64,000 nt of DNA from Tribonema minus (lineage: Eukaryota > Sar > Xanthophyceae > Tribonematales > Tribonemataceae): positions 372,001 through 436,000 of the forward strand of contig JAFCMP010000257.1 in the NCBI GenBank assembly GCA_017506865.1. The letters run 5' to 3'. The notes below the pieces were generated by a model, which had not been told where the DNA came from, made no database searches, and was given only the letters and a program-made list of their open reading frames with translations. Shown one piece after another: positions 11,348-59,579 of the stretch (position 1 is the stretch's first letter; the number at the start of each line of letters is the position of its first letter). Position numbers and translations under genes: made by a program.

Positions 11348-11850
11348 CTAGTCTGCGCTGTGCCCTAGGAGTTTGGATACCGGCGCCGCAACACAGCCCA
11401 GCATTCGCGCTCCACGTGTGTATGCCATGACGCGCTCCGCCAACTCCCGCGCCAGCGATATGCTCAGCTCAATGAGGATCTGACGCTTAGCTAACCCGGC
11501 CTTGCGTAACACATCTGCCTTCCCCCCCCCTGAGCACAGTGCTGAGTGCATTGCCAACTCCTTAACAAAAAGGCTTGTCTGCTTGCCCAGCCGTCCGTAC
11601 GACTCCTGCACGAATGGCACAAAAGCCCAAGATGACGTCAAGGTGCCGGTGTGGTGCTTGACCTTCGCGTCCTCCCCCACCCCAGCAGCATAGCCGTCCG
11701 TGTTCGAGGCATTTGTTTTGCCTGTCAGGTACGAGCTCGCTGTGGGCGCGCGCACACTTGTGTCTAGCACTATTCCCTTGTTACGGTATGCACTGCTAAA
11801 GTGCAGACACCCTGGGTCAATGACTGTGCCACAGTGTCCGCCCGATACCC
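11348..11850 (-). pseudogene. REL (restriction-like) endonuclease end of family A, out of frame with the main ORF
   Basis: The main frame reads GYRADTVAQS and then stops at 11,770. A second frame, open from about 11,845, reads GTVIDPGCLHFSSAYRNKG, then IVLDTSVRAP, DAKVKHHTGTL and a helical end closing LGCVAAPVSKLLGHSAD. R-x-D, the downstream D and K-x-K-H-H match the R/K-P-D...D...K-x-x-K-Y layout of REL endonucleases in R2/NeSL-type elements. The same order occurs in family B at 35.3-35.6 kb (RMDIVL, LMVDVT, AAKTTHYSGHY). A single-base frame change near 11,825-11,845, beside the near-palindrome ACTGTGGCACAGT, separates the halves. It may be a mutation, an assembly error or recoding. Confidence 0.7.
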
Positions 11851-32300: not shown

Positions 32301-32814
32301 CGCGCCGACATACAACCTCATCATCTCTATGCCAATGCTAGACAAGGACGCCATGCACAGCATGCCGGATGTGTGAGCCGCGGCTGGCATGGAACACAAA
32401 CGCGAGCACTCGAGCGAGGGCTGCTCACACAGCTAAGGCACAGCTGTTAAGTGTCTGCTCGTCGAAATCGGCTGGGAACGACACAACAGAAGATCTGACG
32501 CAACCAGCTGGTTTGGACAGCTTGAAGCCCAGATTCCCGCGTGCTATCTCTCTCTCTTGTTTCATTATATCAGCACGAATGACAACACGCGCTAGCGCGT
32601 CCGCATCACGCATGTGCCTACGGTGGACGAATAAGTCTGAAGATGAAAATAAAAATGAGAGGATGGCGAGTATGTGAAGGCATGTATGTGTGTGTAGGCG
32701 AGTGTAAGATGAATGAAAGCATTACGTCCCGCAGCGACGTGCACTGCAGCTCGGTAGCTCGTGTGAACTAAGTAGGAGCGATCGGCTCACGAGCGTGGGG
32801 CTGGGTAAAAAGCC
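29356..32814 (-). pseudogene. Presumed gag/leader region of the LTR element, decayed
   Basis: Only short frames remain (for example DLPVKATVEDMKLWLVNLPC near 30,200 and MRDADALARVVIRADIMKQE starting at 32,613). No zinc knuckle is certain. A 15-bp perfect inverted repeat, CAGACATGGGCTCTT, has arms at 31,678-31,692 and 31,746-31,760. Confidence 0.4.
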
Positions 32815-32830
32815 TGCTCTCGGTTTGCCA
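32815..32830 (-). promoter_or_regulatory. Candidate tRNA primer-binding site
   Basis: On the minus strand TGGCAAACCGAGAGCA starts one base after the 5' LTR end (GTTTCA). The leading TGG is expected of the complement of a tRNA 3' CCA end. The tRNA identity is not determined. Confidence 0.6.
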
Positions 32831-32831
32831 G

Positions 32832-33129
32832 TGAAACGATTAGGGGTTATAGTTAGGCAGTTTTCTTACTTGTGGACACCATGGAGGTCTCTTGGGTTGG
32901 CTTCAGGTCGGCTCCTCTGCTTGTCTTATCTCTCATTCCAGAGTCAGTGTTGTTGTGAACCCCTGCCCCAAGTTCAAGCCCAAGGGCTCCGAACCTTTCA
33001 GCACAAGAAGGGTCTCACAGACAGTTCTCAACTGACACTCTGATATGCTGAGCAATGACCGAACATAGGGAGCCTCTCATCATATGCCAGGAAGTGTAAC
33101 ATACAGAGTACATATATCAAACCGTGTCA
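32832..33129 (-). repeat. 5' LTR
   Basis: 298 bp, one base shorter than the 3' LTR and otherwise identical by eye. This indicates recent insertion or recent conversion. Confidence 0.92.
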
Positions 33130-33133
33130 ATCT

Positions 33134-33659
33134 GCTTGCATGCTGTGCTTCATGTGCCTCACCAGAGCACACGATATGCCATGTGCATGCCATAATGGGG
33201 TGACAAAAAAAAAGTGCCACCAGGCCTAATTTCAAAGTTAAAATCGGAACGCCCAATAAAACACCCAGGCCTAATTAGGATCGCTGCTCCGAGTCGGTAT
33301 GCTCCTGATTCTTGACTGACCGGCCTAGTTTGGCACATGACGGTATGCTATATAGTGCAGTATAAGTTCAACTTGAAACAATTAATTATTTGAAAATTGT
33401 TCATGAAATTCACGACACTGTCATCGTCACGGCCCGGATATCGCATATGCTTGTATTATATTATATACCATTCAATTGAGTTTCAGTTCGAAGATTTCTT
33501 GCAAGTACACGTAGAACGTACAGTACTCAGTCTGCATGCAGACACTTTGAACCTGCTAGTATACTATAGTACTTCAAGTTGCTAAGGACCGCATTCGCCA
33601 TGCTCTCCATGATCGGGCTTGACGAGATGGTCAAACTACTTCAAGGTACACACTAGAGC
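33134..33659. other. AT-rich flank of the LTR element
   Basis: No coding signal. Several TTCAAGTTG/CAACTTGAA words occur (33,367 and 33,573). Confidence 0.4.
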
Positions 33660-33698
33660 GGGTTAGGGTTAGGGTTAGGGTTAGGGTTAGGGTTAGGG
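33660..33698 (+). repeat. Interstitial telomeric repeat, six perfect GGGTTA units
   Basis: Six exact GGGTTA repeats plus GGG. Directly after comes GCTGCTGCGTTGA, which also occurs in the family A 3' tail. Confidence 0.95.
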
Positions 33699-33740
33699 CT
33701 GCTGCGTTGATGCTGTTAGAATATGAGCACTTCCGACTTC

Positions 33741-33817
33741 ACTGTGAGGTAGGGGTGCATGTGAGGCAACTGTCTATCTGGTTAAGAAAGTCTGACCAGA
33801 TAGTGCACAACCTTTTG
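33741..33817 (+). repeat. Duplicated target segment, occupied copy
   Basis: GTGAGGTAGGGGTGCATGTG to CAACCTTTTGT recurs at 34,131-34,205 with few differences. Here it is interrupted by a family B fragment; there it runs on into GTTGGAAGTGCCCCTGTCTT uninterrupted. Confidence 0.9.
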
Positions 33818-33951
33818 TATGCCATTTGGCGGCGGCAGCGTTTGAGTGGTTGTCGTTGCGACACTTTCAGACTGTCATACGACATGTAGATTCCTTACAG
33901 CTAGATGCCAATCATCTAGGCTTTTTCGCGCCCTGAGCGAGAATTAATAAA
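33818..33951 (+). mobile_element. Family B insertion, about 134 bp, 5'-truncated
   Basis: From ATGCCATTTGGCGGCGGC to GAATTAATAAAA this matches 35,807-35,938. It begins in the last codons of the ORF (MPFGG) and includes the whole 3' untranslated region with hairpin GGCTTTTTCGCGCCC. Confidence 0.9.
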
Positions 33952-33954
33952 ATG

Positions 33955-34012
33955 TAGTTGGAAGTGCCCCTGTCTTAACAGTTTGAGGAGTCGGGTTCGA
34001 TACCCACCAAAG
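33955..34012 (+). other. tRNA-like segment with a B-box (degenerate)
   Basis: GTTGGAAGTGCC resembles the second half of a D-arm. About 35 bases on, GGGTTCGATACCC matches the pol III B-box consensus GGTTCGANNCC. The T-stem pairs over only three bases and there is no acceptor stem, so this is not a functional tRNA. It may be a tRNA-derived SINE remnant. The paralogue at 34,211-34,262 has GGGTTTCAGACCC instead. Confidence 0.35.
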
Positions 34013-34130
34013 TCTTCGGATTTTTCAGCATCAGCCTCCCCCCGGGTGCTGGGAAATCAAACCCGGTGAAAACAGAAAACCACTGGCAATGCGACTTGGG
34101 GACCAAGTCAAACAATGAGTAGGGGAGATT

Positions 34131-34240
34131 GTGAGGTAGGGGTGCATGTGAGGCAACTGTCTATCTGGTTAAGAAAGTCTGACCAGATAATGCGCAACCT
34201 TTTGTGGTACAGTTGGAAGTGCCCCTGTCTTAACATCACC
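34131..34240 (+). repeat. Duplicated target segment, unoccupied copy
   Basis: The same sequence as 33,741-33,817 continues through TTGTGGTACAGTTGGAAGTG without insertion. It serves as a natural empty-site control for the family B insertion 390 bp upstream. Confidence 0.9.
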
Positions 34241-34466
34241 TTGTGTGTGGGTTTCAGACCCAGCAGTTTCATAGCACGATTCAGGCGCGTTTCACGAGAT
34301 GTGCGTTACATGGCGGTTACGTCCACCGTATGACAGTCACATTTCTACCGTATATGTTTAGTAATATTCACTCTCGTTTGGACCAGCACCCGCGGTGTGG
34401 CGATGCCTGTCAGCCTCTTCTGCTGCCCTTGCTAGTGCACAACACTGCATTTCCAATGATGCAAAC

Positions 34467-34500
34467 TTTTTTATTGCATAGGCAACTTGGCCTCCTTTGG
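34467..34500 (+). mobile_element. Decayed family A tail fragment
   Basis: TTTTTTATTGCATAGGCAAC followed by TTGGCCTCCTTTGGCCTT aligns with the family A 3' tail (TTTTCGATTGCATAGGCAAC...) with several changes. Confidence 0.55.
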
Positions 34501-34874
34501 CCTTAATAATCTATAAGCCTTGAAGTATACAAAACTTAGTCCATTAGTACAGGCGGCGCAGCTGCAGCACCAGCGCACGCAGCAGCGGCAGCCGTCAATG
34601 CAGGCGCTGCGCGTTCCACACCAGCAATGCTACAAGGCGCAGCAGCAGCAGGCGCGCCTGCCCCTCATGCGGACGATCGCCACAGCTGCCACATCTCTAC
34701 GTGCAGCAACAGGTGACAAGCTGGAACATATACTGCCACCAGCGCTAACGCCACTGCAGCAGCAACCACCTACGCAGCAGCCGCCGCTGCGGCCGACAGC
34801 AGGTGGTGGCACTGGTGCGGATGCTGCTTGCGTACTTGACGCCAGTGCTCTACAGTTGCAGTGTACTACCTACT

Positions 34875-35832
34875 AGCCTGAAGCGCCCCAATCAGAGTGC
34901 GCTTGCAGATGCCGTCGCTACCGAGCTTGCAGATAAGGTGGAGGCGGACCTGCAACAGCTGCCGCAGGGCACGCAACGCACGCAAGCACTTGCTCGATTC
35001 CGGTCGCAGCGCCACATGCACTCGATCGGCATGGCATTCCTCAGCGAGCCCATGTACTCCACAACGGCTTCGTTCGATGGCCTATCCTGGCAGCTGGCCG
35101 TCAAACGCGCCATCGGAGTAGAGGAGCAGACGGCAGGCTGCAAGCTGTGCGGGAAGTCGCCGGGCGGCACCCTGCATGCGCGGCTGTGTCAAGCGCCACG
35201 CGTCAAGGCGCACGACACCATCGTCCACAATAGCGTCAAGAGGGCCACGCAGCGCATCCTGCGGCAATACCTCAAAACGGGACTGGTGGACGAGGACTAC
35301 ACGCCGTTTCTGGGGTCCGCCGGGCCGGATGGACATCGTGCTGCCTGCCGACGCCTGCCCGGTGACCGGCTACGACGACCCGACACGCCACCTACCGCTC
35401 ATGGTGGACGTTACCTGCTTCGAGGCACAGGTGGCGTCGCGGGCGGCGAAGACTGCAGCAGACCCCGAGCGATGCTGCCGCGACCAAGAGGCCGCCAAGA
35501 CTACCCACTATTCTGGTCATTATGATCAGCATTGCTACAAACTTGCCACTTTGGCAATAGGGTCATTTGGCAGCATCGGGGAGCAGGGGCGGAAGCTGCT
35601 GGAGGCTGTGGCGACGGAGTATGCCAGCAGGATGTCAGTGCCCGGAGGAGCGCGCCCTAAAGCTCTCAAGGGCATCGCCCTGGCGCGCTTACGCTCGGCA
35701 CTGTCGGCAGCGCTCCACATGGCGTACTCTGGCCGTGTCATGACACACATGGCAGAGTCCAGGGGGGGGGGGCACATGGAGGAGGACGTAGGGGAGGACC
35801 CCGAGATGCCATTTGGCGGCGGCGGCGTTTAA
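34875..35832 (+). pseudogene. C-terminal CCHC knuckle and REL endonuclease of family B
   Basis: One frame reads LKRPNQSALADAVATELADK, ARFRSQRHMHSIGMAFLSEP and the knuckle CKLCGKSPGGTLHARLC, then KRATQRILRQYLKTGL and YTPFLGS. The endonuclease core then continues in a second frame: RMDIVL, HLPLMVDVTCFEAQ, AAKTTHYSGHYDQH and GEQGRKLLEAVATEYAS to a stop at 35,832. The switch is at about 35,318-35,330, in a run of G/C. The knuckle and the following helix align with family A (CPWRCSDVSPTSTHAISC then TAQKRCLQRILRQH), so both families share this domain order. The RT itself is lost by 5' truncation. Confidence 0.85.
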
Positions 35833-40372: not shown

Positions 40373-42110
40373 AAACCTGCCGCAAGGGCTGGCTCAGTGC
40401 TGGCAGCGGGGGGGAGCGTCGCCCTGCAATATTGAAGTTGACATTGCCCGATGGCCGCTCGCCCCCCCCCCCCTTCCCCCTCTTTCGTTTCTCCCCTCCT
40501 CTGCGCTCCACGCAAGTGGTGTGCCCAGAGATGGTGAGATAGTCATTTTCTCACATCCACCCTCACCGCCCCCCCTGCGACGCTCCCCCCCCTCTCCACA
40601 CACACACACACACACACGCGCGCGCGGACCTGCATGGCTTGCAGTGTGGTGACGAGTTTGGTTAAGCCCCGCACACGTTCTCGGGCACCGTTGCTTTACA
40701 GTCCTCAGGGACCTGTTTTCTACCCAATGTATCTGTGGTGCCAGTTTTCAATTATCATAGCAGGATAGTGCGGGCAGCGGATGTTGGTTTCCCGCTGTCG
40801 TATAGTGTTAGGACCCCCCCCCCCCTCCCCCCCTCCACCCTTCACAGTCTCATGCTGCGGTAGAGGTGGTGCACGCAAATTCGCCGCCCCCCCGCCCCCC
40901 CCCCCCGCCCCCTTCGCTACTAGTCTCAGGTAACACACCGCCAAAGCCTTGAAGCGCAATTCGTGTTCTGGAGCACAGTTCAGCAGTGCTCGGTCTGCAC
41001 CCCGCCACCACGTTCATTTGGCGATACACGTATCCAGTCAGAGTAGATCGGTTGACTACAGACAGACTGCTGCAGCCCCCGGCGTATGCAGATTTCGTAC
41101 CGCTCTTTGTGTTTTCCGGGCCGCGGCGCCCGCCGCCGTCGCATGTGACAGTCGCAACCCGATTTTAGCCCACCTAGCATCTGGTGCCATGGAGTTGTGT
41201 CGTCCAAATGATAAACTGTGTTGTGTGACATGTGTGTACCCCCCCCCCCCCCCTCCCCCGCGCGCCTTGTTCGCAACGCGTCGGTGGTGTCTGTGTTGTT
41301 GCTCTGTGGCCGGTTGGTGCCCCGCATGCCCTGCTGAATGCATTGCATCGTGTGGACGGCATGCTTCAACTGCCTGCGCGCATCATCGGCTGCAGTGCAT
41401 GCAGTCAGCAGCAGTCAGCGTCCATAAATGATTTCGCGCCTGGTGAGACTAGATGGGGACTGTGGCTTGATTTCAGCCCCTTCGTGCAATGGCGTAGTGC
41501 TTGACGCATGCGCTGCCTTTGATCTCAATCAAGTACCATGTGTTGCCAAAGCGTGCCAGCGACCGCAGCATGCGCATGGTGAATGACTGCGCAGCGTTCT
41601 GCTTGGTGAGATCCGCCGATGCCGTCCCCCAAAGTGCAGTGCGCCCATGTTCTCCGGCATTGAGCGCGCACGCGCGCCTTACTTTCCTTTTCGGCAGGCA
41701 CGGTATGCGCGCCTGTGCATGACAGGACCCTATCTCTAACCCTAAATTTAAGCACCCTGCTTCGTCACTCGCGCCCGCACTATTCTGGCGGCAGGCGCTA
41801 TGTGTGTGCCCACTGGGTAGGCATGTCGCGGGAGTCTACACTCTCGTTTGGCGGCGGGCAGGCTTGTGCGCGTTCATAGCAGCGGGTGCGTTACGTCATG
41901 CGTGCCTGCACACCAGAGATGGCCCATAGTGCCGTTGGTCAATCGTTTCGCGTTCGCGACAACAAGAACGTGTACAGGTTAAAAAAGTACGTGTTCAGGT
42001 ACTTTTATTATATTCCACTTGTGGCTGTGGAAATGCCATGTTGTAGGTGTGTCGCCTTGTTCTCACTCTTGGATGTAGCATGCAAAGCTTGCACGCCACA
42101 CCCCGCCCCC
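40373..42110. other. 3' flank with C-runs and a CA/CG microsatellite
   Basis: Contains C-homopolymers (about 40,466, 40,815, 40,890 and 41,240), a (CA)n(CG)n run at about 40,596-40,626, and a short TCTAACCCTAAA telomere-like word at about 41,736. No supported gene. Confidence 0.5.
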
Positions 42111-42770
42111 CACATCACCCCCAACAAAGCACCCGCAAGCGACTGTCCCCCACATACTAGCAGGGATACCAACCAAAGCTACAAGACTCTCCCCCCACAG
42201 ACAGACCCGTCTTAGGGCCACCCAGCTCCACGCAGACTCCATCTCCAACTTTTCATGCAGGCCAAGGTCACCATAATGGGCCCTGAACTGGAGATTGTGG
42301 CTATCTACGTGAACCCCGATATCATAAAGATAAGCAGAGGGAGTCACTGGGCGCCAGGCGCTGACGCTAAAAAGAAAGGCTATATAACTAAGCAAAGCAT
42401 CGCCTCCTTGATGAGCGGGACAGTGGTTCACCGGGCCTCCCATATCACCCCCAACAAAGCATCCGCAAGCGACTGTCCCCCACACACTAGCAGGGATACC
42501 AACCAAAGCTGCAAGACTCTCCCCCCACAGACAGACCCTTCTAAGGGCCACCCAGCTCCACGCAGACTCCATCTGAAAGTTTTCATGCAGGCCAAGGTCA
42601 CCATGATGGGCCCTGAACTGGAGATTGTGGCTATCTACGTGAACCCCGATATCATAGAGATAAGCAGAGGGAGTCACTGGGCGCCAGGCGCTGACGCTAG
42701 AGAGAAAGGCTATATAACTAAGTAAAGCATCGCCTCCTTGATGAGCGAGGTCACGGCTCACCGCAGGCTG
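42111..42770. repeat. Tandem duplication of a 330-bp unit, two copies
   Basis: 42,111-42,440 and 42,441-42,770 align at exactly 330 bp offset with few substitutions. The unit length is a multiple of three. On the + strand it reads QAKVTIMGPELEIVAIYVNP and SRGSHWAPGADA; on the minus strand a frame stays open across both copies. I could not assign a protein family. Confidence 0.9.
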
Positions 42771-43093
42771 CAAGCCTGACAAGATATTGCCATTTACCGC
42801 TGCGAGTAACTTGTGGTTGGTGCCGTGGCGTGCAGCCGACTCCGCTTGCTCTCCAAGCACGCCAAGCCGCTGCCTGTCCCTCCTCCGCACGCCAGCCAGG
42901 GCTTCCGAGACACCACCACACGTTTGAAGTTCTCTCGAAGGGGCTACGCACGCTGGCATCACCTGAGGGCCGCTGGTGCTAGCTCCTGCAAGCCCTGCAG
43001 CCCAGCCCACCCACCAAACCAGCCGCATTCGCTGCCACGCCTTTCGGCGTTAACGAGCTTGGGACGCTGTACTTGAAAAAAGTTCAGGTACTT

Positions 43094-45616: not shown

Positions 45617-45916
45617 TCAGCGACCACACACATACCCTATCCCTGCCACATAGGGAGGGGCAATGGTGCTGCGCGGCGGTGCAACCCCCTTGATGGCCAC
45701 AGTGCGCAGCCCTATGAACACCAAGTGTGACGGACAGCTGGTGTTCACGGCTGCAGTGGAGCTCATGAGCCCGTAGGGCCTTGAGAAGGTAGCAAACGAA
45801 TCCACCGTAACAGTGAATCTTGACGCCACGGTGACGGCGCCTTGCGGCGCAGTGACCGACCACGTCCCCGTGCGCGCTCCGTTGAATGGCAGCCCGTTGC
45901 GCCCTGAGACGGTCAC
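45617..45916 (-). CDS. Exon 15 of the P-T-repeat gene: C-terminus
   Basis: After CACTGTAG it reads VTVSGRNGLPFNGARTGTWS, VASRFTVTVDSFATFSRPYG and NTSCPSHLVFIGLRTVAIKG, and stops at YVCGR. A possible donor (GTATGT) lies just before the stop, so one more exon cannot be excluded. Parts resemble exon 13 (V-S-R-F-x-x-T-x-DSFA). Confidence 0.75.
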   Translation of the reverse strand: MTVSGRNGLPFNGARTGTWSVTAPQGAVTVASRFTVTVDSFATFSRPYGLMSSTAAVNTSCPSHLVFIGLRTVAIKGVAPPRSTIAPPYVAGIGYVCGR

Positions 45917-48900
45917 CTACAGTGGCATGAGCAGAGACGAATGCAACATAATGATGTGCTGACTTAGTGGTGATTGCGGTCAACTGGTGTTGTGGAGCAG
46001 GGTCCCGGCAAGACTCAGTTCGGCACAGCGGTGTGAAACGACAGGTGCCTTCTGAATACGATTGCCCTTGTGTTTGACAGCGCCTAAGTGAGCAGCCCGC
46101 CGCGTAGTTGTGCGCACCGTGCAATCCGTTTCTATATATTCTGAGCAAAAGTCTGCGGCTGCCAGTAGCGCTGTGTGACAAAGGGCAGCTGGCAGCGTTT
46201 GGACTGGCTGGGCAACGCAGCCACCGCCGAACGAGCTGTACTTATGTGGTCGGCGTTTGGCCCTTGAAGGGATGCGTTTCGCCTGGACAAGTAATGCAGC
46301 TAATCACTTGCAATACAAAGTTACAACTCTCATGATGATGCCATCAGAAGTAGCAGCAGCACAAGCATGGCTGAGGTGTCTCGATGCCTGCGCACCAGCG
46401 ACCATCGCCCACTGGCCCAGAGGGAGAACGCGCATGTCGTCCACCTACAGAACTGGCTGGCAGCAGCGCCGCAACGCAAGGCAGAGCCAGAGACTCAGTA
46501 GCACCATCCTGCTGCGCGGGCAAAGAACAATGCACATCGCATACTTTAACTTCAACTGTGACAACAAAAGACAACGCACATCGAACACTTCAACTTCAGC
46601 TGTGACGCACCGCAGCGGGAGAGACGGTGGGCATGGGCGTCGGCGCCGGCGTCGGCGAGTCAGTGCTCGTCTGCGGTGGCACAGCGTACGCGTTGTTTGT
46701 GCGGACGGGCAGCACCACCGGACCGCTGTTATGCGCGCTTGGGTCGCCGGACGTGCAGGTCAAGCTGACGATGGTGTCCAGCTGATCGCTGCTGAGCAGT
46801 GTGACGGCGGTGACGACGTAGCGCGGCGGGCAGACGGTGTCAACGATGGCGGTCGCGCGCTTGGTGGGGCCTAGGTCCACCACTCCTGAGGGTCGAAATA
46901 AGGGTCAGGGTTTGGTGTTAGAGTCAGCCCCGAGTACGAGCGTACAGTAGGGTAGCATGCGGGTTCAGTCGAGGCTCAACCACTAACCGTTGAGCCAGTG
47001 AAGGTGGACCTGTGCAGGTCTAGCGACAGAATGTGGCGCTCATAGTGTGATTCATGAAGCCTACTTTACTTTAGAGTATCTTCTAATACTCGAAAATAGG
47101 AAGGTGTTGCGTTTGGAATGGCTGGCAGCATAGTAAGCTGGAGGTACATGGCACAGCGATTATCATCGGCGGCTGTTCTGCCTGTGGAATGGATACACCT
47201 ACGGCACAAAATATGGTGCTGCTCTACACTCCGGTGAGATAATGCAGGCTTTTGTGACTGTTGAACATAGCAGACAAAAGAGAGCAGTCAAGCATACTGC
47301 GCGTCGCAGCCTCAACTCTTTTTGTCGTCTCAAGATCCACTGCTAGGGCGCATCTTTACCCACCAGGCAGGTCAGCGTTTGCGTCTGTTTCATGTACTTC
47401 TAGCATCATTGTTGACATGGTTTGCTGTTCGCAATAGTGCAGCGTCGCAGCTCTCAGCAATGCATGCCCGCCAAGTGCTTTGAAACAACGCCAAGGCAGG
47501 TGCAAGATATGCGGCCAGAGGTTGGGCCATGCCAAAGCCATCACCACACTCAAGCATCTGGCTAGGCCTGTTGCAATGTGCTACTGTAGGGCTAGGTTTA
47601 GACCAGGATTAGCCTGCCAGAGACGTGAGGTTTTCTTGTACCAGTAGATTTCATGGAGGGGATCAACACCTGCAGCAGTGTTGTTTGCACCGGCTCATGC
47701 ATTGCGCGCATCCATGCTCCACCTTATGAAGCCCAGCACCCCTCACTGTGACTTGCCTCAGACCAAATATGCACAGTGCTTGACATGCCTCACAAGTACA
47801 TGAGGTTTTCTGCCTCTCAAGCAGAAGTCAATAAAGTGCGTGCCTCAATTCCGGTAGCTTACGCAACGCGTTGTGGGTGTGGCTGCTGATACCCCTCGAA
47901 GCTTGAGTACTTCAAGTATAACAAGGTCCTTGCCATTGCTCACCTCCGCTCTGCCCACACACGATCCCTGCAGCAACAAAGCAGATGATCGATATTGTTG
48001 AGTGTCACGGCCAGGAAGCTGCAGACGCAGCAGAATCGCGAGGGATGCCATGCCAAGCGGTGCCACGGTTCGATCGCGTAGTGCACACACACGACATTTG
48101 ACAATGTGCGATGGTGCAGCTGATGCAGCAGGGTTCCAACATGTCACAATTTACAGACACAGGCATATCAAGTGCCGTTGTCATTGTGCTCTAGCGCCTG
48201 CACGCCACAGAGCGTCCTTGCACACGACATTCTCTGAGCCGCCAGACGCATGTGTAGCACAGCAGTGCAACGATTGATTGCAGTAGGCACGGCACGACAA
48301 CCGTCTTTGACATACTTTTGGGCTGTACGCAACCTTTCAAGCAGCATGTGCCCACCACCGCAGACGGAATATTTTGATGATTAACCCTCCCCAGTGACCC
48401 CTAAACACAGCGCAAGCGGGGCAAATGCGTGCAGCGATGTTCGCAAGCAGCTCATTGATGGGTACTTTGAAGTATGTAGGCCTCTACATGTTGGACGGGC
48501 ATGTATGTGGAAGTGATCATCGTACATATTGAACATGGCGCAGTTCAACATGTGACTCACCAAACCCCGACACGTACGCGTCGCCACTCTCGATGAACGT
48601 CACTGCGTACCGCAGCCCGGTGATCTTCTGCGTGCCAGCACAAATCACCTCCTTCCCAGGCCCCCCTGACTGCCCATACCTGCCAAAGTTGTTGGCGAAG
48701 GAGTCTGCGGTCATGAAGAAGCGAGAGACGAACAGCTTCTGCTCAAAGCCCAGAGTTGAGCTTGCGCTCGCTCCGTTGAAGCCCTGTGCGTTTGAGAAGG
48801 TAGCTGGGGAGCCGCCGTCGCCGCCGGCGCGGATGAAGAGCGTCGTGATGATGCCAGCGCTGTCTGTGCAGGCGAGGGTGTTGATGGCATCCAGCCAGCC

Positions 48901-51900
48901 CCCAGACCTGTGGGGTCAAACACGACACGCGCGAAGGCACCACAAGGCAGGTAGGGGGGAAGGTTTTGTGGTGTGTGTGCCAGAAGCTAGCACGGTACTT
49001 GGTGAAAAGTAGACGGGGCATGCAGTCATGGCGCTGCTGGTGCGTGCGCACAGTCCGTGATGGACATCATGATTCTAATTCTGACCCCCTGGCCTCCTCA
49101 TCAGCAACACGACCGGAATCCTGGTAGCATCGCTTCACCTGCCACACACGCGCGGTATTTCAAGGGACCTACCCACTGATTTGTGGTCTGCGTGAGGCGC
49201 GCCAACTTCAACGACAACGCATGCGTGCTGATGCGGTGTCTGTGAAGTTCAACGCAGAGACTGACACCTGGGGCCATGTTCGAGGCTGGCACCTGGGGCC
49301 AAGTTCAATGCAGAGACTGACACCTGGCGCCATTTTCAACTTCAAGTTAAATCAGGCGTGCGCGCCGCCCACCTGAGGCCCAGACCGGTCACAATGCTCC
49401 CCGGCGGGCACACCGCCGAGCGGATCTCATCGTTACCGAGCTCCGGTCCAAAGTCATAGACACTTGTGCTAGCACTCAGCACAGGCTGCGCAGTGGTCGG
49501 CACTGCCGTCGGCGCTGGCGTTGGCCGAGCAGTGACTGTGGGCGTAGGTGTGGGGCGCGGCGTCGGCACTGCAGACGGTCTGGTGGTGGCGGTCGGCACA
49601 GCAGTAGGCGTCTTAGTGGGGATGGCGGTAGGCGTTGCCGTTGTGGGCGCGGGGTTTGGCGGCGTCGTTGGCTCGCGTATCGGCATGCGTGTGGGCACGC
49701 GCGTGGGCAACCGCGAGGGCAGGGCAGTTGGCCTAGAAGTGGGCACCTGGCAGTAACAAGAGAGGGCGGAGCGTCACGAGACTTTAGCGGTGCTCTGTGC
49801 ACCTTTGGTAGAAGCTAGGTTGCATAGGCACAGAAATGGCGAAATCATGGTCCTTTGGTGCATGTGGTGCATTGCATCAGCAAGGGATACCAAGCAGGAA
49901 ACACATCGCAGCGGCTTGCCCTAGTGTCACTGAAAAACATCTCCTCTGGTTGTGGCGCCCTGCAACTTCAAGCGAGTGTGTGAAGCCTGAAAATTGATTA
50001 GTGTCACACGAAAGACCTTTATTGTGGAATTCAGGAAGGGGAAAACACTTGGCTACTAAGTACGATGGCGCACGTGAGCAGACAGGCGAGATGCACATCG
50101 ACATGACCAGATGTGTGTGAAATCAGCAAACGCGGCATTGCACCTGCGTAGGCTGCGGTGTGGGGGTCATAGTCGGCGCACTTGATGGCGTTTGGCTGGG
50201 GGGGGTGGTCGGCCCCGCTGTTGGATTGTTTGTTGGCTATGCAAAAGAGAGAGAGAGGGTGAGAGAGGGGGGGGGGGGGGGGAGAGAGAGCAATGGGACA
50301 CTCCAAATATTAAGGGGCATCCCGACGCCCTGGCAAACGATGTGTTTCGCAATGATGTGAAAGTCACTACAAGCAGACAGCTGGGCCACTGATACCAGAG
50401 GCTGATGGTGCTCACCGCAAACAGCAGAGTTTTGCATGATGTTGGCAAGTTCATGTCATAGCTGCGTCCCCATATCAACACAACGAGAGACGCGAAGCCT
50501 GCAGCTGCCGAGGGTTGGTAACCTTACCACCACCACGCCAAACAGCAGTGTTAACATTGGACAGCGCCACACCAACTCAAAGTACTTGGGTACATGCCTG
50601 ATTTTTGTGCAGCATACACAGTAACTTCACATTCAAACCCTTGATGCATTGCAAGCTACGTGAAACTTCTCTCACCGCCTCCGATGGTCGCGCAGTGGGA
50701 CTTGAAGTTGGCTGCGCAGTAGGGGTTGAAGTTGGCTGTTTTGTAGGCACAGCAGTTGGCACGCGTGTCGGACTGGCCGTTGGAGTTGCTGAAGGCTTGG
50801 CTGTCGGTGTGCTGGTTGGTACCCGCGTTGGCACCGCGGTGGGCGGTGGTGATGGTTTGGCAGTTGGTGTGCCGGTGGGTACCTGTATGTATGTATAGGG
50901 AGGGCAGCAGTGAGTCACTTGTGTTGGCACTGAAGGTGCACAGGTGACAAAGGGTGCGCACAGTGTCGGAATGAAGCTGGAGACATGGATTACTGCGAGT
51001 GACCGAAAAATTGCAGTCTGCTTGTTTCTGCCACATACCTGCGGCAGCCACTTGCAGTACTTGTTTAGGCCCCACATACCGACACATCGGCGTTGCCAAG
51101 TCATCTTCGGCTGCAACAAATGCAGCGCGAACAGCACTTTGGATGTGGGGTACACTGCCTCGCCGCACGTGCAATTGCCACATAGGGGTGCAGGTATGTT
51201 GAACTGGCATATATGCGCACTGGCGAGCTGCACCTGGCAGATCACCCAGGCTGTTGTGGCTGTTTACCGATTCCTGAGTAAGTTACCCAAGTAGGTAAGT
51301 GGTGAATAACTCGAGTCATAGTGCTTCGCGCAACCCATCAGCACTCTCAGCATGACCCACAGTGCTGCTGTTCAGGTCCTGGAGAGCATTGCACGCCTGG
51401 TGGAAACCATCACCAGCGCGCGAGGTGTGTCACACAAAGGCGCTGGCATCCCTTCTGTGTTCCAACATGAAAATACCTCTTGGAGGAGGCATGCCTGACA
51501 AGTTGAAGTTGCGACAAAGCTGCACTACCCAGGTTTGCGAGATTGGCATCAAGGAACTTGGTCAGTGATTCATCACTGCATACTTGAAGTTCGCTTCTCG
51601 GAAAAAGCTGCAAGAGTGCCCTCTCGGTCGGTCAGACCTAGGGCTCAGAAACAATAGTAGAGCATGTTCTAGTTTCAAGGCAGCCTAGGTATGTGCCTGT
51701 ACTGTTACTCATAGCACATTGAGCACTGTTGTGGTGACCTGTGTGCAACTCATGACAGAAGCATGACTGAGCAAGCGTCCCTGAGTCTTTCACCATGCGC
51801 AGCGGGCTTAAGGTAGCAGTGACCCCCTGATGCAACAAGACCCCAGGGTCTTTACCACACGGGGGCTGCATACCGCTTGGGGACTGTTTACCCGGTGCTT

Positions 51901-54900
51901 TCATGACAAGTAGTAGGCCGAGTTGAGCAGTATCGCTATCAGAAAGCTATGGCGCCACCGTGTCATTACTCCACAGAGCCAGCTGTCGCGGTTCATCAGA
52001 CCTGCATGTGCCAGAGTGTATACTCTTACCCATACCAGTTCAGTTGTAACTGTACTTGGTGTGTTCACCGTGACGCTCACTGCAGTGGCAAAGTGTGCGA
52101 TTGTCTGCGCAATTAGGCATGAGGCAAGCACTTTCAAATGCGCACAGTGCCAGCCCAAAACCACGCAGCATCAGATTCTACTGACTGTGTCAGAATGACT
52201 TATACCTTGGTGGGTAGCTGCGTGGGTGTTGAGGTTGGTACGCGCGTTGGCTGCTGAGTTGGCTCTGCTGTGGGCGTAGCTGTAGGCTGTGCGGTCGGTG
52301 TGGCGGTCGGCTCAGCAGTGGGCTCGGCAGTGGGTTGCGCTGTAGGGTTTGAAGTTGGCTGTGCAGTAGGATTTGAAGTTGGCTGTGCAGTAGGGTCGGA
52401 AGTTGGCCGTGCAGTAGGGTTTGAAGTGGGCTGCGCAGTGGGGTTCAAAGTGGGCAGTGGCGTGGGCTCAGCAGTTGGCATGCGTGTCGGACTGGCCGTT
52501 GGAGCTGCCGAAGGCTTGGCTGTCGGTGTGCTGGTTGGCGATCGTGTCGGCTTCGCTGTGGGCAGTCGTGTTGGTTTGGCAGTGGGGGTGCCAGTGGGAA
52601 CCTGCATATATGTACAAGGAGAGCGACAATGAGTCACTTGCATCAACGTTGACGGGCAATGAGTGAAAAAATGGTGCGGAAAGCGTTGGAATAATGTGGG
52701 AAAAGAATGACACACTGCAATCTCAATTTCAAACTCGCTTGCTTCAGTCACATGACTGCTGCAGGGATTCACCACACAGCCAGTCATCCGGCCTCGCGGA
52801 ACCTGTTGTGCCCCATCATGACGCTGGTGCATCACACTGGAGGAAAGTTGCCCATTCTACCTGTACTTTCTGCAAGGTCACCGGATGCAATGTGCCACGC
52901 GCTGCGGCGGCAAAGTTTGCGGCTCTGCCCTGCGAACTAAGTAGACGTCAGGCAAGCACCCCCAGAAGCGCACAAGGCGAGCCCAAAACCACGCAGCGCC
53001 ATGATTCTACGAGCACATGGTCCCATAACCGTACCTTGGTGGGTCGCTGCGTGGGTGTTGAAGTTGGCACACGCGTTGGCCGTTGAGTCGGCTCTGCCGT
53101 GGGTCGGTGCGTAGGAGTTGACGTTGGCGAACGCGTAGGCCGTTGAGTTGGCTCCGCTGTGGGCGTGGCGGTAGGTGTAGCTGTAGGCTCTGCGGTCGGT
53201 CTGGCGGTTGGCTCAGCAGTGGGCTCGGCAGTAGGCTCTGCGGTAGGGTTTGCGGTTGGCTGCGCAGTAGGGTTTGAAGTTGGCTGCGCAGTGGGCTCCG
53301 CAGTTGGTTCAGCAGTGGGCTGAGCAGTTGGCGTAGCAGTAGGTTCAGCTGTCGGGGTGGCAGTAGGCTGTGCTGTTGGCTCGGAAGTAGGCTCCGCTGT
53401 GGGTGTGCTAGTCGGCTGTAGAGACACAGAGGCAAGTCACGGTCGGTCAACAGTTCATAAGGTGAGCGCGCCTGGATAAAGCTGCTTGCGAATGCGGCTG
53501 ACAATCCTATGTGCACGATTATGCCTTGCAGGCCGCAGAAGTGCCAGCATACACATTTTCCTACCATGCATTGAAACCATGAATGAGGCTTGGCATTGGA
53601 GTACATCCATTCATTCGAATTGGCGAGCGTTTAACTGTGTTCGCTCGGGAAGGTGCGGCCCGGCTGGAAAGAATGCATCAATTGGCAACTGGCTTTGTCA
53701 GGAGAGCCCAGTTGCGTATTTTAGCTGAGCACTGCAAACACAACACCCATACGGGCCTGTCACCGTAGGTCTGTGTCATATGCACTCGTAGATGTGATGC
53801 GGCACCTTATTAATTCCTTACCGGCCCTATAGACTATGCATATACAGGTGATGTGGGTCACTGCTGCTCTTTACATATGCTATGCGTCATGGCAGGGCCC
53901 TGCACACATGGTTTCACTGACAGCGCACAGATCAAGAGCAGCATGTGCATGAATTCAGTAATGCGATTAGTCTCACCGTTGCAGTTGGCTGCGCAGTAGG
54001 GCTTGACGTTGGCTGCGCAGTAGGGTTTGAAGTTGGCTGCGCAGTAGGATTTGAAGTTGGCTGCGCAGTAGGGTTTGAAGTGGGCTGTGGCGTGGGCTCA
54101 GCGGTAGGCACTCGTGTCGGACTGGCCGTTGGAGCTGCCGTAGGCTTGGCTGTTGGTGTGCTGGTAGGCACCCGCGTTGGCTTTGCGGTGGGCGGACGTG
54201 ATGGCTTGGCAGTTGGTGTGCCAGTGGGTACCTGGTATGTATGCACAAGAGAGGGCAATGAGTTGCAGCAACAGGCGGCGGCGTGGGTGACAATCTGGAC
54301 AATCATGGTTGCATTGCGAGGGTAACAACATGGCCATTTGAGAAACTTGCAAGTGGGAGCCTGAAGGTCCTGTTGGAGATTGGCCTCGGCGACTGTTGAA
54401 GTTGCGCCCATGTGTTGCTTGCCTTGACAGGTGCAGCCTACGCGCTAGCAGGTTCTGTGAGACACCAACAGTGCACATGCGCCGCTTGGCCGTGGACCTA
54501 TCCAGCAATGGTGCTGTGTGAGCGGCGAGCAATTCCTCGTAAATAGACTGTGCCTTCCCGGCAGTGTCATTGCGCCGCATGCTCTGGGTGTTGTCCCAGT
54601 GGAGGTTGCGAAGAAGCGGCATCAGCTACAGGACGGCAAGCTTGATATAAATCTGCTGGTGTAGCATGACTCCATCATTATGGTCATGGTATTAAAACGA
54701 TGCCATGTTGTTCACGTGTCCAGCTGACTTATTTGCACGCGGTTCCAAATCACTAGACTCTTCAGATGCTATCGGAACGCTACAGAAAGGGTTCGCACGG
54801 CAAATGCTGCTACTTCACCTTTGTTGGCTGGCGTGAGGGTGTCATGGTCGGAGACCCTGTCGGTGTACGACTGGGAGCGGCGGTGGGCTCCGCCGTCGGC

Positions 54901-57900
54901 CGCTTTGTTCGCTGCACAGACACACGGACACATTGTAGCATTGAAGGCCGTTGACGGTAAGAAACATTTTGTGGCTGATGCCTGATGCAGTTGTGTGCCA
55001 CTGCGCAAGGTGCTTGATGATGATGCGGCACCAAGTTGAAGTTGGGTCACAAGCGCGCTGCTGCAGCCATGCAGGAGCGCGGAACAGCGGCAGCAGGCGG
55101 TGCTTGCGCGCACTTGGAATCATTGCGCTTGGTCTGCTGAGCGAGCTGCGCGCTGCAACTCCTTTGTTGAGACCAGAACAAATGCATGCATACTTCAAAG
55201 TATTGTATGTACTCATCAGCACATTATGTTACTTGCAGCAACGTGCTCTTGCATGCTGCCTGAAGCCCAACGGAGACAATACATCATATCAGCATATATT
55301 GTTTGCAATACACTTGCTGCATGCTGCCAATAGCCCACTGGAACATGTACACGTTGGCATTTTATAGTCAGATGTGCAGTGCCCCGACTAACTCTGCCTC
55401 CCACTGGCTGCATTGAATGAAAAACGAATCAAAAGATCGACTGATGGCACGCATCCGTCGGGTGCAGCTGACTCTGTCTCCACTTTGACATTGCGATCAA
55501 GCAGATTCCGCACAGCACTGCTGTCGGATCAATGGCGCACATACTTTCTTGACAATTTAATGGCCACAAATTCGCGCCGCCTTTGCGATACCGCACTTGG
55601 TGCATGCCCGACTTGTTTTGAAAGCTAGTGCGGCTATGCGATGCCTTGTGCACGTGCATCTCGCCCAGGTTGCCCCATGAACATGACGGGCACAAACTTT
55701 AATCATGAGTGGCGTTCCTTGTCATTATGCATAAGAACACAGTACGATGTAGGGCCACAATTACCATTCTTTTTGTTGGCTTTGCAGTAGGTGTTGAAGT
55801 GGGCAGCAGTGTTGGCGAATTGGTTGGCACATGTGTTGGAGTGGCCGTAGGAGTTGCGGAAGGCTTGGCGGTTGGTGTGCGCGTAGGCCTGCGCGTACGC
55901 CGTGTGGTGGACGGTTTTGCAGTTGGCTTGCCCGAAGGCTCCTGGCAAAGCTCAACACCGGTTATGAGGCAAAAGTCAGCAACACGAAAAAATAGGCAGC
56001 GCTGTGTGCTTCTCCGTGCATTTGAGCACAGCTTTCGGAGCGGATGCCGTACGTGCGGTCGTACAAGCTGACATGAACAAGCTTGAGCACTAAGTCAAGG
56101 GCTCGCAGGTGCCTTGAAAGCACGTTGTCTGGCATTTTCGTCAGCTCCAATGGAGCTGAACCACTGCCAGCTTGGCAGCAGGAGGCGTGTACATTGGCCT
56201 GTGAAAGGCGCAACATGTTGGCAGGTTCATGCCTCAGCGGAAGGACAAGGAGGCAGAGCATATTGACAAGCTGAAGGCTCACCCGGTTTGATATGTGGCA
56301 GGATATGTTGTCGTGTGAAGCTGTGGTCATTCGTATATCGTGAGGTGAAAGTAAGCACGAGACCGTTGCAGTGTGCAACAAGAGATGTTATTCTCACCCG
56401 CTATATCGGCAAATGAAACGACGCGTTCGGGAGCACTGGGGGTGTCCTACGGTGAAGTGACTTTTGAATCACTGCTGTGCCCAAGTGGCAGCATGCTTTG
56501 AGTTGTGTGACACTGGCAGAAACAAGCATGAATCATCCAGTTCCCAACCATACAGTATGAATTATTGCATCAGAAACTTTCGGGATGTCAAAATGAGTAA
56601 CGTTACACACTGCACCTTTGTTGGTCGCTGAGTCCGTGCTGTGGGCGGCGGGCGTGTTGGCCTTTTGGTTTGCGCTGCTGTCGGCTTTCTTGTTGCTTTT
56701 GGCTGCCTTGTTGGTGCTCTGGTGGGCTGTGATGACTCAGTGCAGCAACAGACAAATTTTGTCTGTTAATAACCTACTACAAAGTGCAAACTAAACTACT
56801 GACGAAACCAGTACATGAGTATTGTCGAGGCTGAACTGTGCCTGTTTGAAGTCAATGTCATCTGCCCCTGTGCCATCATGCTGTAACTGAATGCGACAAG
56901 TCATCATTGAGGGCCAGCGGCATAGCCATTTGTACGTCAACCAGTGGATGAGGCTGGTAAAGACTGCCACTTGGACCACGCTTGTGTGGCAGTTGACTGC
57001 TATTGCACAGTAGTCCGACAAAAACATCTGGCATCGGGTATTTTAATGGCGGCGCTCTATATTTGAGCGAGGCAGGTATAGCGCAGCAGTGCCATGCAGC
57101 ACACGGTGTGGCCACAAGACCACATGACGCACAAGCTGCTATGCATCAGCGCTTCAATGGCAAATCATACCATTGGACTGTTTGGCTGTGGGCCTGTTTC
57201 ACTTCAGTCTCGGCCTGCGTGCAAGGCCTCCGAGTCTGCAATAAACGATCCGTGGGTTGAGTGTGGTCGCCCCCTTGCCACTGCACCACTACCTACCATC
57301 AACTGTCATCCAGGTTGAGCTTACCCTCTCGGTACGCAGCGCAGACGGCTTTGAAGTGGGCGATGCTGCTGTCGGCTTGGCGGTACGTCTTCTCGTCGGA
57401 GAGGCCGTGGGAGATGCTGAAGGCTCTGCAGGTGACGGCTGGGTTGGCCTGCGCGTGGGCTTGCTTGTAGGCGACGCGCCTGATGGCTTGGCAGTACTAG
57501 AAGGTACCTGAGAGCATCAAGAAACCATCGATGAGATGCTAAAGCACTTGGCAATGCTGGCTTGGCCCATGATGGGCCAGTTGGCACTTGGTAGCATGGC
57601 CATATATATCAGTTGCCAGTTTCTCCAAAGGCTGTAGCTGCTACATAGGTCTTGGATGATATGTCTGCGAGTTGCCATTGTGGCTTCCGGAGGGACAGGA
57701 CCTGCCAGTACCAGACTCAACAGCTGTCGCAATTGACAACTGACAATGGACTCAGGTTGAAGCCATGTACGCTGTTTTGTACCTGCACTATGCTTCCCGT
57801 GGATTGTGCGCCATGCTGTGGTCCGCCTTTGGGTTCAAATTGGTGCGGTTGTGCGTATCATGTGGGCTGTGATAATACAAATAGTAGGAACACTGACTGC

Positions 57901-59579
57901 TCGATCTTCAACGAAAGTTTCGAAGTATGTTTTGTACCTTGCAATAGATGATGTATGAAGATTGCGCGACATGCACGATTAGATTCAAAGTGGCGCATGA
58001 TGATCGAAGGCATTCTTACTGCCGCAATACAAGTAGCTTCAAGTTGAGGCTGCGGCGTGTGCACTCAATGACCCTATCACTATCGCCATGTTATCAGAGA
58101 ATCGGATGATCCAGCTTTGCCATGATGCCTTCAAGATTTGATTCAATAATAACAATATGAATGAACACATACGTTCAATTGAGGCTCAATGTCAGCAAAA
58201 CGGGGCCATACAAGGGGCTGAGAACTTCGTTGAACCCCCTGAAAATCACTTACATATTTGATATCACTCAGTCTGGCAGGCAGATTCACAAGTGTCATGA
58301 AGTGGGGCAAGTCTCCCAGTTCTGCCAGTGCATGGAGATTCCCCGACTCACAACTCATGGCGATGTTATGGACGCTGCAGAATTCGCTGAGACCCTGCTG
58401 CCCTCTACCAAATTGCAACTGCGGCTGACGAACTCATGGAACCGTGAGCGTCAGCACAGGACAAGCCAACAGCTGCTGCGGCGACCACGGTTATTGGTGA
58501 AAGGCATTCAATTTGACGGCTGACCACACCTTGTTGCCTAAGTAGAGCTCTACGATCTTTGATTCGTTTTCACCTGTATCTGAGCGTACAGCACATCAAC
58601 ATTGCTGGCATACGTGTCAGTTTACACCCCACAACCACAGCCTGGTGACTGCCACTGTGACCGGTGTCATGCGACATCGAACTCATGCGTGCACGTGCAA
58701 GCCTTGTTTGAATCAGTCACTTTACAACCAATTGCACGCGGCTGGTACTCTTAGCGTCCCGGCGCATTCCAAGAGGGCATACTGCTTTAAAAATTCTGCA
58801 TGGCATCATGATTGCATGACGTCATTGGAGCAACCTGGATAGTACGCGATGAGAAGCGAACACGGAATTCGGCATCCTCGCACCTCGGTGGGCCGCCGTG
58901 TACTCCTAGTAGGTTTCCCGGTTGGTGACCTGGTCAGCGCCTTGCTCACTGCAGCCATGGGCTTCAACTTGAAGTTGTTCAAGTTGGCTGACGGCATGTT
59001 GGTTGGCTGCACGAACAAAGGCGGGTCAGGGAAGAGTCTCAGAGACGCTTCATGGATATCGTGACTATATGATGCCGGTAAAGCAATTTGAAAGACACCT
59101 GCTAGAGGGACGTTGCACAGACACACCGTATGCGAGCAGCAACTTGAAGGACGCGCAACAGTGAATCATATGGCGACGAGGCATGCTTGCAAGTTGCAAA
59201 CCACGGTGGCCTGCGTGCTCAGCCGACGAGTTAGGATATATCGTTAACTCAAAGGTTGAGAAGGTGTTGTCATCACTCTAGCACTGATGCAGGTACGCAC
59301 CAGAGGAGTAGGTGTGTTTGCCAGGCGCCGCCCAGTGGTACCAAAGTCTGTTTCAACTTGGCGGTTGCGGCCAGCTGGCACTTTCACAGCCTGAGGCATC
59401 ATGATACTAGTGATTGGAGAGGTGACAATGTGCTGCCACTTCAAGTGTGTGATGGGTTGTCTGACGCTGTCCTTCTCGATCCAGTCGTGAGCGCCGGTCA
59501 ACTCCACATTGAAAGCCTGAGCGCTGTTGATGTAGGGCAGGAAAAGTACTGGCACCAGTAGTCGCCAAACATGCCACAT
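45617..59579 (-). CDS. Secreted P-T-repeat protein with C-terminal Cys-containing (lectin-like?) modules, 15 exons
   Basis: Minus-strand exons: 59,579-59,301; 59,006-58,884; 57,507-57,325; 56,726-56,616; 55,941-55,765; 54,911-54,819; 54,231-53,977; 53,415-53,035; 52,601-52,206; 50,882-50,676; 50,236-50,144; 49,746-49,373; 48,907-48,561; 46,885-46,611; 45,916-45,617. Every intron is GT-AG and the frame closes to 1,197 codons with TGA at 45,617. Exon 1 gives a signal peptide (MWHVWRLLVPVLFLPYINSA). Exons 2-11 and most of 12 are P-T-x-x tetrapeptides (PTAQPTSNPTAEPT style), likely an extended O-glycosylated stalk. Exons 12-15 carry two modules with CPPG/CPP..VT followed by LD-x-I-x-x-L-x-C. An extracellular or cell-wall role with sugar binding is inferred. 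Such P-T repeats are common in stramenopile surface proteins. A missed exon cannot be excluded in the long introns. Confidence 0.85.
46611..46885 (-). CDS. Exon 14 of the P-T-repeat gene: second module and short P-T linker
   Basis: Reads VVDLGPTKRATAIVDTVCPP, RYVVTAVTLLSSDQLDTIVS and LTCTSGDPSAHNSG, ending in STDSPTPAPTPMPTVSPAA before GTGCGT. The CPP..VT...LD-x-I-x-x-L-x-C order repeats that of exons 12-13. Confidence 0.8.
46886..48560 (-). other. Longest intron (1.68 kb) of the P-T-repeat gene
   Basis: Bounded by G|GTGAGT and CCCTCAG with matching phase 1. I see no further exon or nested gene inside. Confidence 0.6.
48561..48907 (-). CDS. Exon 13 of the P-T-repeat gene: first Cys-containing module
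   Basis: Acceptor CCCCACAG, donor G|GTGAGT. With the end of exon 12 (VCPPGSIVTGLGLR) it reads SGGWLDAINTLACTDSAGII, TTLFIRAGGDGG, FVSRFFMTADSFANNFGRYG and EVICAGTQKITGLRYAV. It resembles beta-rich carbohydrate-binding folds in style. Phase 2 in, phase 1 out. Confidence 0.8.
52206..52601 (-). CDS. Exon 9 of the P-T-repeat gene, 132 codons
   Basis: Starts VPTGTPTAKPT like exons 7 and 10 and ends STPTQLPTK like exon 8. It thus appears to combine the starts and ends of its neighbours. Phase 0 at both ends. Confidence 0.88.
53035..53415 (-). CDS. Exon 8 of the P-T-repeat gene, 127 codons of P-T-x-x
   Basis: Thirty-one consecutive tetrapeptides, mostly PTAE, PTAQ, PTAT and PTSN, ending PTQRPTK at GTACGG. 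Its last part duplicates itself (RPTRSPTSTPTHRPT / RPTRVPTSTPTQRPT) and resembles the end of exon 9. Begins and ends in phase 0. Confidence 0.88.
59301..59579 (-). CDS. Exon 1 of the P-T-repeat gene: signal peptide and N-terminal region
   Basis: The ATG at 59,579 opens a short basic start and a hydrophobic core (VWRLLVPVLFLPYINSA) with likely cleavage after AQA. About 65 residues of ordinary composition follow (FNVELTGAHDWIEKDSV, PAGRNRQVETDFGTTG), ending ANTPTPL at donor GTGCGT. Exactly 93 codons, phase 0 out. Confidence 0.8.

Follow-up and report, generated by a model that had tools for sequence, protein, structure and literature searches.

An algal gene with a P-T-repeat stalk of two alternating phase-0 exon types, and its probable growth by recombination of the coding repeat

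Gene model, protein parts and reading frame

The window analysed here is a 64,000-nucleotide stretch (C257:372001-436000) from the genome of Tribonema minus, a yellow-green alga; the genome searched comprises 158 Mb in 554 contigs. The minus strand of the window holds a predicted gene at positions 45617-59579, in which the putative splicing of 15 exons yields one open frame of 1197 amino acids plus stop. The first-pass annotation had proposed the same outer coordinates, strand and exon number, and the borders of this model follow GT-AG in all 14 introns. Introns 1-11 are in phase 0, followed by phase 2 for intron 12, phase 1 for intron 13 and phase 0 for intron 14. The introns measure 294-1675 bp, in agreement with the spacing of 0.3-1.7 kb described earlier, and exons 2-11, with 31 to 132 codons, are indeed in phase 0 at both ends. 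The additional claim that each of these exons is a whole number of P-T-x-x units did not hold, as exon 9 (132 codons) is the only one of the ten that is divisible by four.

The predicted protein consists of a signal-peptide-like start, a 768-residue P-T stalk and two copies of one globular domain. Its start, MWHVWRLLVPVLFLPYINSAQA, is hydrophobic, resembles a signal peptide by eye and is among the top hydropathy windows. Judged from the sequence, the protein is probably secreted. The stalk occupies residues 94-861 and contains 25% P and 26% T, with 85 K+R against 24 D+E. The parts of the gene are listed below, all on the minus strand, with the stalk exons assigned to two types, A and B.

Exon 1, 59301..59579, minus strand: signal-peptide-like start and N-terminal segment, 93 codons; present in the paralogues
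Exon 2, 58884..59006, minus strand: B-type, 41 codons
Exon 3, 57325..57507, minus strand: A-type, 61 codons; not found in the tandem paralogue
Exon 4, 56616..56726, minus strand: B-type, 37 codons
Exon 5, 55765..55941, minus strand: A-type, 59 codons (61 in the paralogue)
Exon 6, 54819..54911, minus strand: B-type, 31 codons
Exon 7, 53977..54231, minus strand: A-type, 85 codons, with 24-bp repeats (PTSNPTAQ)
Exon 8, 53035..53415, minus strand: B-type, 127 codons
Intron 8-9, 52602..53034, minus strand: homologous to intron 9-10
Exon 9, 52206..52601, minus strand: chimaera, 5' part A-type and 3' part B-type, 132 codons
Intron 9-10, 50883..52205, minus strand: homologous to intron 8-9
Exon 10, 50676..50882, minus strand: A-type, 69 codons
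Exon 11, 50144..50236, minus strand: B-type, 31 codons
Exon 12, 49373..49746, minus strand: A-type start, P-T linker and first part of globular domain 1
Exon 13, 48561..48907, minus strand: remainder of globular domain 1
Exon 14, 46611..46885, minus strand: first part of globular domain 2 and a short P-T insert
Exon 15, 45617..45916, minus strand: remainder of globular domain 2 and stop; the NCBI model has a different end

The deposited NCBI prediction for this gene, P0002 (915 aa, C257), was compared with the present model by eye. Exons 1, 2, 12, 13 and 14 are the same in both. In P0002, exons 3-6, 10 and 11 are read in another frame, exons 7-9 are skipped, and exon 15 is left before its last residues; in our model exon 15 ends in GYVCG, which fits the G-x-V-C-G ending of other domain copies. 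The prediction for a paralogue on C551, P0001 (458 aa), has no stalk at all. Skipping of most stalk exons or their joining in other frames had been named in advance as an outcome that would speak against the P-T gene, and this is what the predicted P0002 shows; the codon-position data contradict P0002. The gene has a tandem paralogue of 1136 amino acids at C257:441-455 kb, built in the same way; exon 3 was looked for in it and was not found. Read in the P-T frame, the window gene and this paralogue differ at 26, 27 and 87 sites in codon positions 1, 2 and 3, a count that covers exons 4, 5, 6, 7, 8, 10 and 11 and leaves out stalk exons 2, 3 and 9. With exons 2 and 4-11 aligned by protein, the numbers are 46, 45 and 128. 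All four exon gaps between the two genes are multiples of three (9, 3, 48 and 9), as compared with 14 of 76 gaps in seven introns. The third-position excess and the in-frame exon gaps suggest that the P-T frame is under codon constraint and make the NCBI reading of the stalk exons unlikely.

One could still suppose that the P-T stretches are satellite-like DNA outside the P-T frame, and that the NCBI model or an antisense V-G reading is correct, given that P0002 is the deposited prediction and that open frames do exist antisense. Such a reading is very improbable in our judgement. It does not account for the third-position bias and the in-frame gaps that separate the paralogues in the P-T frame, the globular exons 13-15 show a like bias between the same two genes (22, 20 and 48 at positions 1, 2 and 3), and the strand of the P-T frame also carries the signal-peptide-like start and the domains, joined in frame. 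The deposited predictions for both genes, P0002 and P0001, drop or misframe stalk exons and are a warning for annotation.

Exons 12-13 and exons 14-15 encode two copies of one domain of about 145-170 residues, in which three cysteines are invariant among 11 copies from the Tribonema minus genome. No credible match to the domain was found in Pfam, PDB or the protein database, and a profile built from the 11 copies gave no match in 7993 candidates, whose lengths were all close to that of the domain. The only two protein database matches at E<=1e-3 among 7992 candidates scored are P0001 and P0002, both from Tribonema minus. AlphaFold2 on P0002 with P0001 gave a mean pLDDT of 32, a model unusable for fold search. 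No P-T exons were detected by scanning the sequence read in the neighbourhood of domain genes on C146, C13 and C528; none were found by scan on C74, though open frames with short P-T runs occur there. At C13:1084434-1099667, in which the P-T exon scan found none, at least five globular domain copies form a cluster. As for the stalk, exons 5, 7, 8, 9 and 10 scored above the cut-off (26.2 bits) of PF04886, the PT disordered repeat, corresponding to five of the seven stalk exons scanned; exons 3 and 11 and the frame of exon 12 were below it, and exons 2, 4 and 6 lay outside the scan. This Pfam family describes repeat composition and is silent on gene structure or function.

Two exon types and the chimaeric exon 9

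The exon order in the window gene is 2B 3A 4B 5A 6B 7A 8B 9(A+B) 10A 11B, and exon 12 begins as A. The C551 paralogue has the same architecture in 741 amino acids, with stalk exons of 31 (B), 61 (A), 31 (B), 61 (A), 31 (B) and 57 (A) codons followed by a B-type start in the domain-entering exon. The alternation is broken once, in the tandem paralogue, at the place of the missing exon 3. The types were assigned from exon order and borders, and the counts that follow come from three related genes and hence are not independent: A-type lengths are 4n+1 codons in 8 of 10 and B-type lengths are 4n-1 in 9 of 13 (exons 2 and 4 do not fit), A-type exons start with GTN in 12 of 14, B-type exons start with CCN in 13 of 14, and an AG codon closes all 15 B-type 3' ends, including that of exon 9. 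Since A exons mostly have 4n+1 codons and B exons mostly 4n-1, the P-T-x-x register closes over the exon pair and not over single exons.

Phase 0 alone is weak evidence for exon duplication, because 67 of the 130 AG sites in the stalk coding sequence would give a phase-0 cut anyway. This figure suits an alternative in which introns were inserted singly into one long P-T exon at AG proto-splice sites, so that phase 0 comes from the repeat and not from exon duplication. Intron comparisons by BLAST go some way with it. Among 214 within-gene intron pairs in the three paralogues, 210 have no match at E<=1e-3. The remaining four match, as compared with none in 20 block-shuffled sets. They are introns 8-9 and 9-10 in each tandem copy (E 5e-13 for the window gene, 2e-21 for its tandem paralogue), introns B1-A1 and B2-A2 in C551, and a 31-bp match between introns 13-14 and B3-A3 in C551, which is probably unrelated. 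A lenient pairwise-identity matrix of intron ends was uninformative, with random intron pieces averaging 74%, and was replaced by BLAST and shuffles. Inserted introns would not be expected to produce two alternating border types with complementary lengths. For exons 8-10 the insertion scheme is already contradicted by the intron copies in both tandem genes, and it also conflicts with the one-module difference between C551 and C334 and with the exon-plus-intron arrays on C212, C131 and C553, described in the next section. We consider it quite unlikely.

It had been reported that exons 7, 9 and 10 start alike with VPTGTPTAKP and that exons 8 and 9 have a common end, and both statements were borne out. 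Exon 9 resembles exons 7 and 10 on its 5' side and exon 8 on its 3' side, and the matches continue into the introns. In both tandem copies the alignment to exon 10 spans the acceptor and that to exon 8 spans the donor. The likeness to A exons runs from the 5' end, and in the tandem paralogue it begins 178 bp inside the upstream intron. The likeness to exon 8 runs from the interior of exon 9 through the donor into the intron, as an alignment of 701 bp at 68% in the paralogue and of 464 bp at 71% in the window gene. The simplest history compatible with these alignments would be a tandem duplication of a segment made of the 3' part of B, the intron and the 5' part of A, with both breakpoints in the P-T coding repeat. 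Its product would read B, intron, A::B, intron copy, A. As both tandem copies have the chimaera, it predates the gene duplication.

Duplication is directly shown for exons 8-9-10 only. For exons 2-7 and 11 we infer it from the A/B alternation, since their introns show no match.

Related loci and exon-intron arrays

Between the tandem copies, length changes are seen inside exons, 48 bp in exon 7 and 135 bp in exon 9. C334 has one A exon of 62 codons, whose upstream flank aligns with the end of exon B1 of C551 and with almost the whole of intron B1-A1 (720 bp, 71%, E 3e-97), and whose downstream flank aligns with the first 290 of 667 bp of the C551 intron A2-B3 (308 bp, 69%, E 3e-28). In place of this single A exon, C551 has two A exons, one B exon and two introns. 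By these alignments, the two loci appear to differ by one A+B module, and gain in C551 or loss in C334 would both fit. Exon identities in C551 are 93% for A1 against A2 and 76% for B1 against B2. Introns B1-A1 and B2-A2 match in their last 49 bp only, and the junction would lie in exon A or in these 49 bp of preceding intron common to A1 and A2. No match was found by BLAST between introns A1-B2 and A2-B3, and for this reason conversion of exon A in C551 is possible. C334 may be a gene fragment, because no further P-T exon was found around its A exon in the 5 kb read. In C551, the beginning of exon 13 is present once more, as an incomplete copy at 201490-201640 just upstream of that exon.

The first-pass annotation had described modular lengthening by duplication of phase-0 exons together with slippage inside exons. 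Exon duplication (exons 8-9-10) and in-exon repeat change (exons 7 and 9) are both supported. The unit is what has to be revised, as it looks like a two-exon A+B module with its introns and not a single exon.

P-T exons also occur elsewhere in the genome. A 92-residue A+B query matched at least 155 places, on at least 24 contigs among the matches listed, the count being a lower bound from 150 of 641 first-look candidates scored. A regular series occupies C212 between 466055 and 484777, where 38 P-T matches follow one another every 506 bp and a single longer exon adjoins them; the 38 are matches of the A+B query, and those in the middle have the same score and open-frame length as the others. 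Reading of the array ends gave ten phase-0 exons of 216 bp (72 codons), separated by introns of 290 bp, and an exon of 100 codons at the 5' end. In both ends read, adjacent copies inside the array are 98.8-100% identical. Around the array (C212:463198-488365), short 24-codon P-T runs are present at 463-465 kb, and at 486-488 kb a short P-T exon occurs again after 2.1 kb. An exon-intron unit of 1448 bp recurs on C131 and C56 at 98-100% (6 full-length rows plus partial ones). C131:1-18548 and C56:8031-12047 have this unit in common at about 100%; the two contigs could be adjacent, allelic or duplicates. C553 carries a 2.3-kb module of two P-T exons, which repeats at 97.5% identity. Within the module, the blocks of roughly 0.4 kb that surround the two exons are 89-90% similar to each other, making it a higher-order repeat. 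C553 has P-T exon arrays on opposite strands, at 31600-35600 (plus) and 60700-67100 (minus), the second being the two-exon repeat of 2.3 kb. The arrays on C212, C131, C56 and C553 are known as exon-intron repeats and not as full gene models. Among the titles and abstract openings listed in literature searches, none dealt with arrays of P-T exons in Tribonema.

Did the copying take place through the introns? In such a scheme, exons would be duplicated by intron recombination, as in classical exon shuffling or through a transposon, and the coding repeats would merely have slipped inside exons. Intron ends do travel with the copies, and the 49-bp intron stretch common to A1 and A2 could contain the junction in C551. 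The 1448-bp unit includes, at bases 245-769 and outside the exon, a segment that is 78-88% identical to a dispersed repeat present on 17 other contigs, and this element seems to have multiplied together with the exon. Yet exon 9, which is flanked by two introns of one class, passes from A-like to B-like within its coding sequence, and breakpoints in introns do not by themselves produce such an exon. We regard duplication through introns as unlikely.

Stalk growth, known parallels and other open frames in the window

Taken as a whole, the data are probably best explained by a secreted wall stalk, built from two alternating phase-0 exon types, that grows and shrinks by out-of-register recombination of its coding P-T repeats. 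The protein would comprise a signal peptide, a short N-terminal segment, a long disordered P-T stalk, perhaps hydroxylated or glycosylated, and two terminal globular domains. Coding repeats of 12 and 24 bp would recombine out of register, lengthening or shortening the stalk. The outcome would depend on the partners: recombination within one exon would change the repeat number, that between a B exon and a later A exon would duplicate the intron between them and create a new chimaeric exon such as exon 9, and that between two A exons would add or remove one A+B module. With junctions in the coding repeat and exon ends in phase 0, the frame should be preserved in most products. A single process may underlie both recombination within exons and exon duplication, since the change from A-like to B-like in exon 9 takes place within P-T coding sequence and the junction between C551 and C334 falls in exon A or in the preceding 49 bp of intron. 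Growth most likely proceeds by copying of blocks of exon plus intron, arising from repetitive coding DNA that misaligns with itself, with unequal recombination as the presumed agent.

A broader proposal, which we hold tentatively and rate somewhat below an even chance, is that the P-T stalk exons behave as a protein-coding satellite. Recombination of the coding repeat, and not of introns, would multiply exon-intron units at many loci, giving two-exon higher-order repeats, arrays of about 38 near-identical exons and fast length change of wall proteins, with the frame kept by construction.

Tropoelastin and fibrillar collagen genes are examples of stalk or fibre proteins grown by duplication of symmetrical exons, and elastin alternates two exon types. 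The elastin introns are of another phase class, and the sequences differ from those of the Tribonema stalk. Tandem exon-plus-intron copies within one gene are found in the window gene, in introns 8-9 and 9-10 with exon 9, and in the exon-intron arrays on C212, C131 and C553. Coding arrays of exon-intron units are already known from human LPA, where the kringle IV type 2 coding VNTR (KIV-2) is described as having two exons per 5.6-kb unit and 1 to about 40 units (PMC11462820), an organization comparable to the A+B modules and the C212 array. Whereas the KIV-2 units described there encode a folded domain, the Tribonema units are 0.5-2.3 kb long and encode a disordered P-T stalk, with at least one junction inside the coding repeat. 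What sets the Tribonema loci apart is that at least one pair of breakpoints sits in a disordered P-T coding repeat, that the two exon types are complementary in register and that several arrays occur in one genome. These observations suggest that a spliced gene can lengthen a stalk without frame loss, the coding repeat serving as recombination substrate and the phase-0 ends keeping most products readable. In the alga, rates, junctions and strain variation could be measured at the C551/C334 pair and at the C212 array.

With regard to function, a parallel is found in another stramenopile. PT-repeat genes of Thalassiosira pseudonana are described as responding to silicon, and their silaffin-like, wall-linked products have XPT/SX tetrapeptide repeats; peptides of tpSil1H contain dihydroxyproline, and proline hydroxylation is suggested (PMC5501833). 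The word intron is absent from the main text of that paper. These diatom genes and the signal-peptide-like start make a modified cell wall spacer carrying two globular heads the likeliest role. The wall role is a guess from the stalk, the domain having no known relative.

Other open frames in the window were noted as well. A 2845-aa frame at 11770-20307 (minus) has a weak match to reverse transcriptase PF00078 (E 1.6e-6, just under the cut-off) and is probably a retroelement. A 240-aa frame at 34803-35525 (plus), with no Pfam match, has wording that by eye is like the end of the 2845-aa frame. At 42063-43028 (minus), a 321-aa frame contains, by eye, two near-identical copies of a stretch of about 100 residues.
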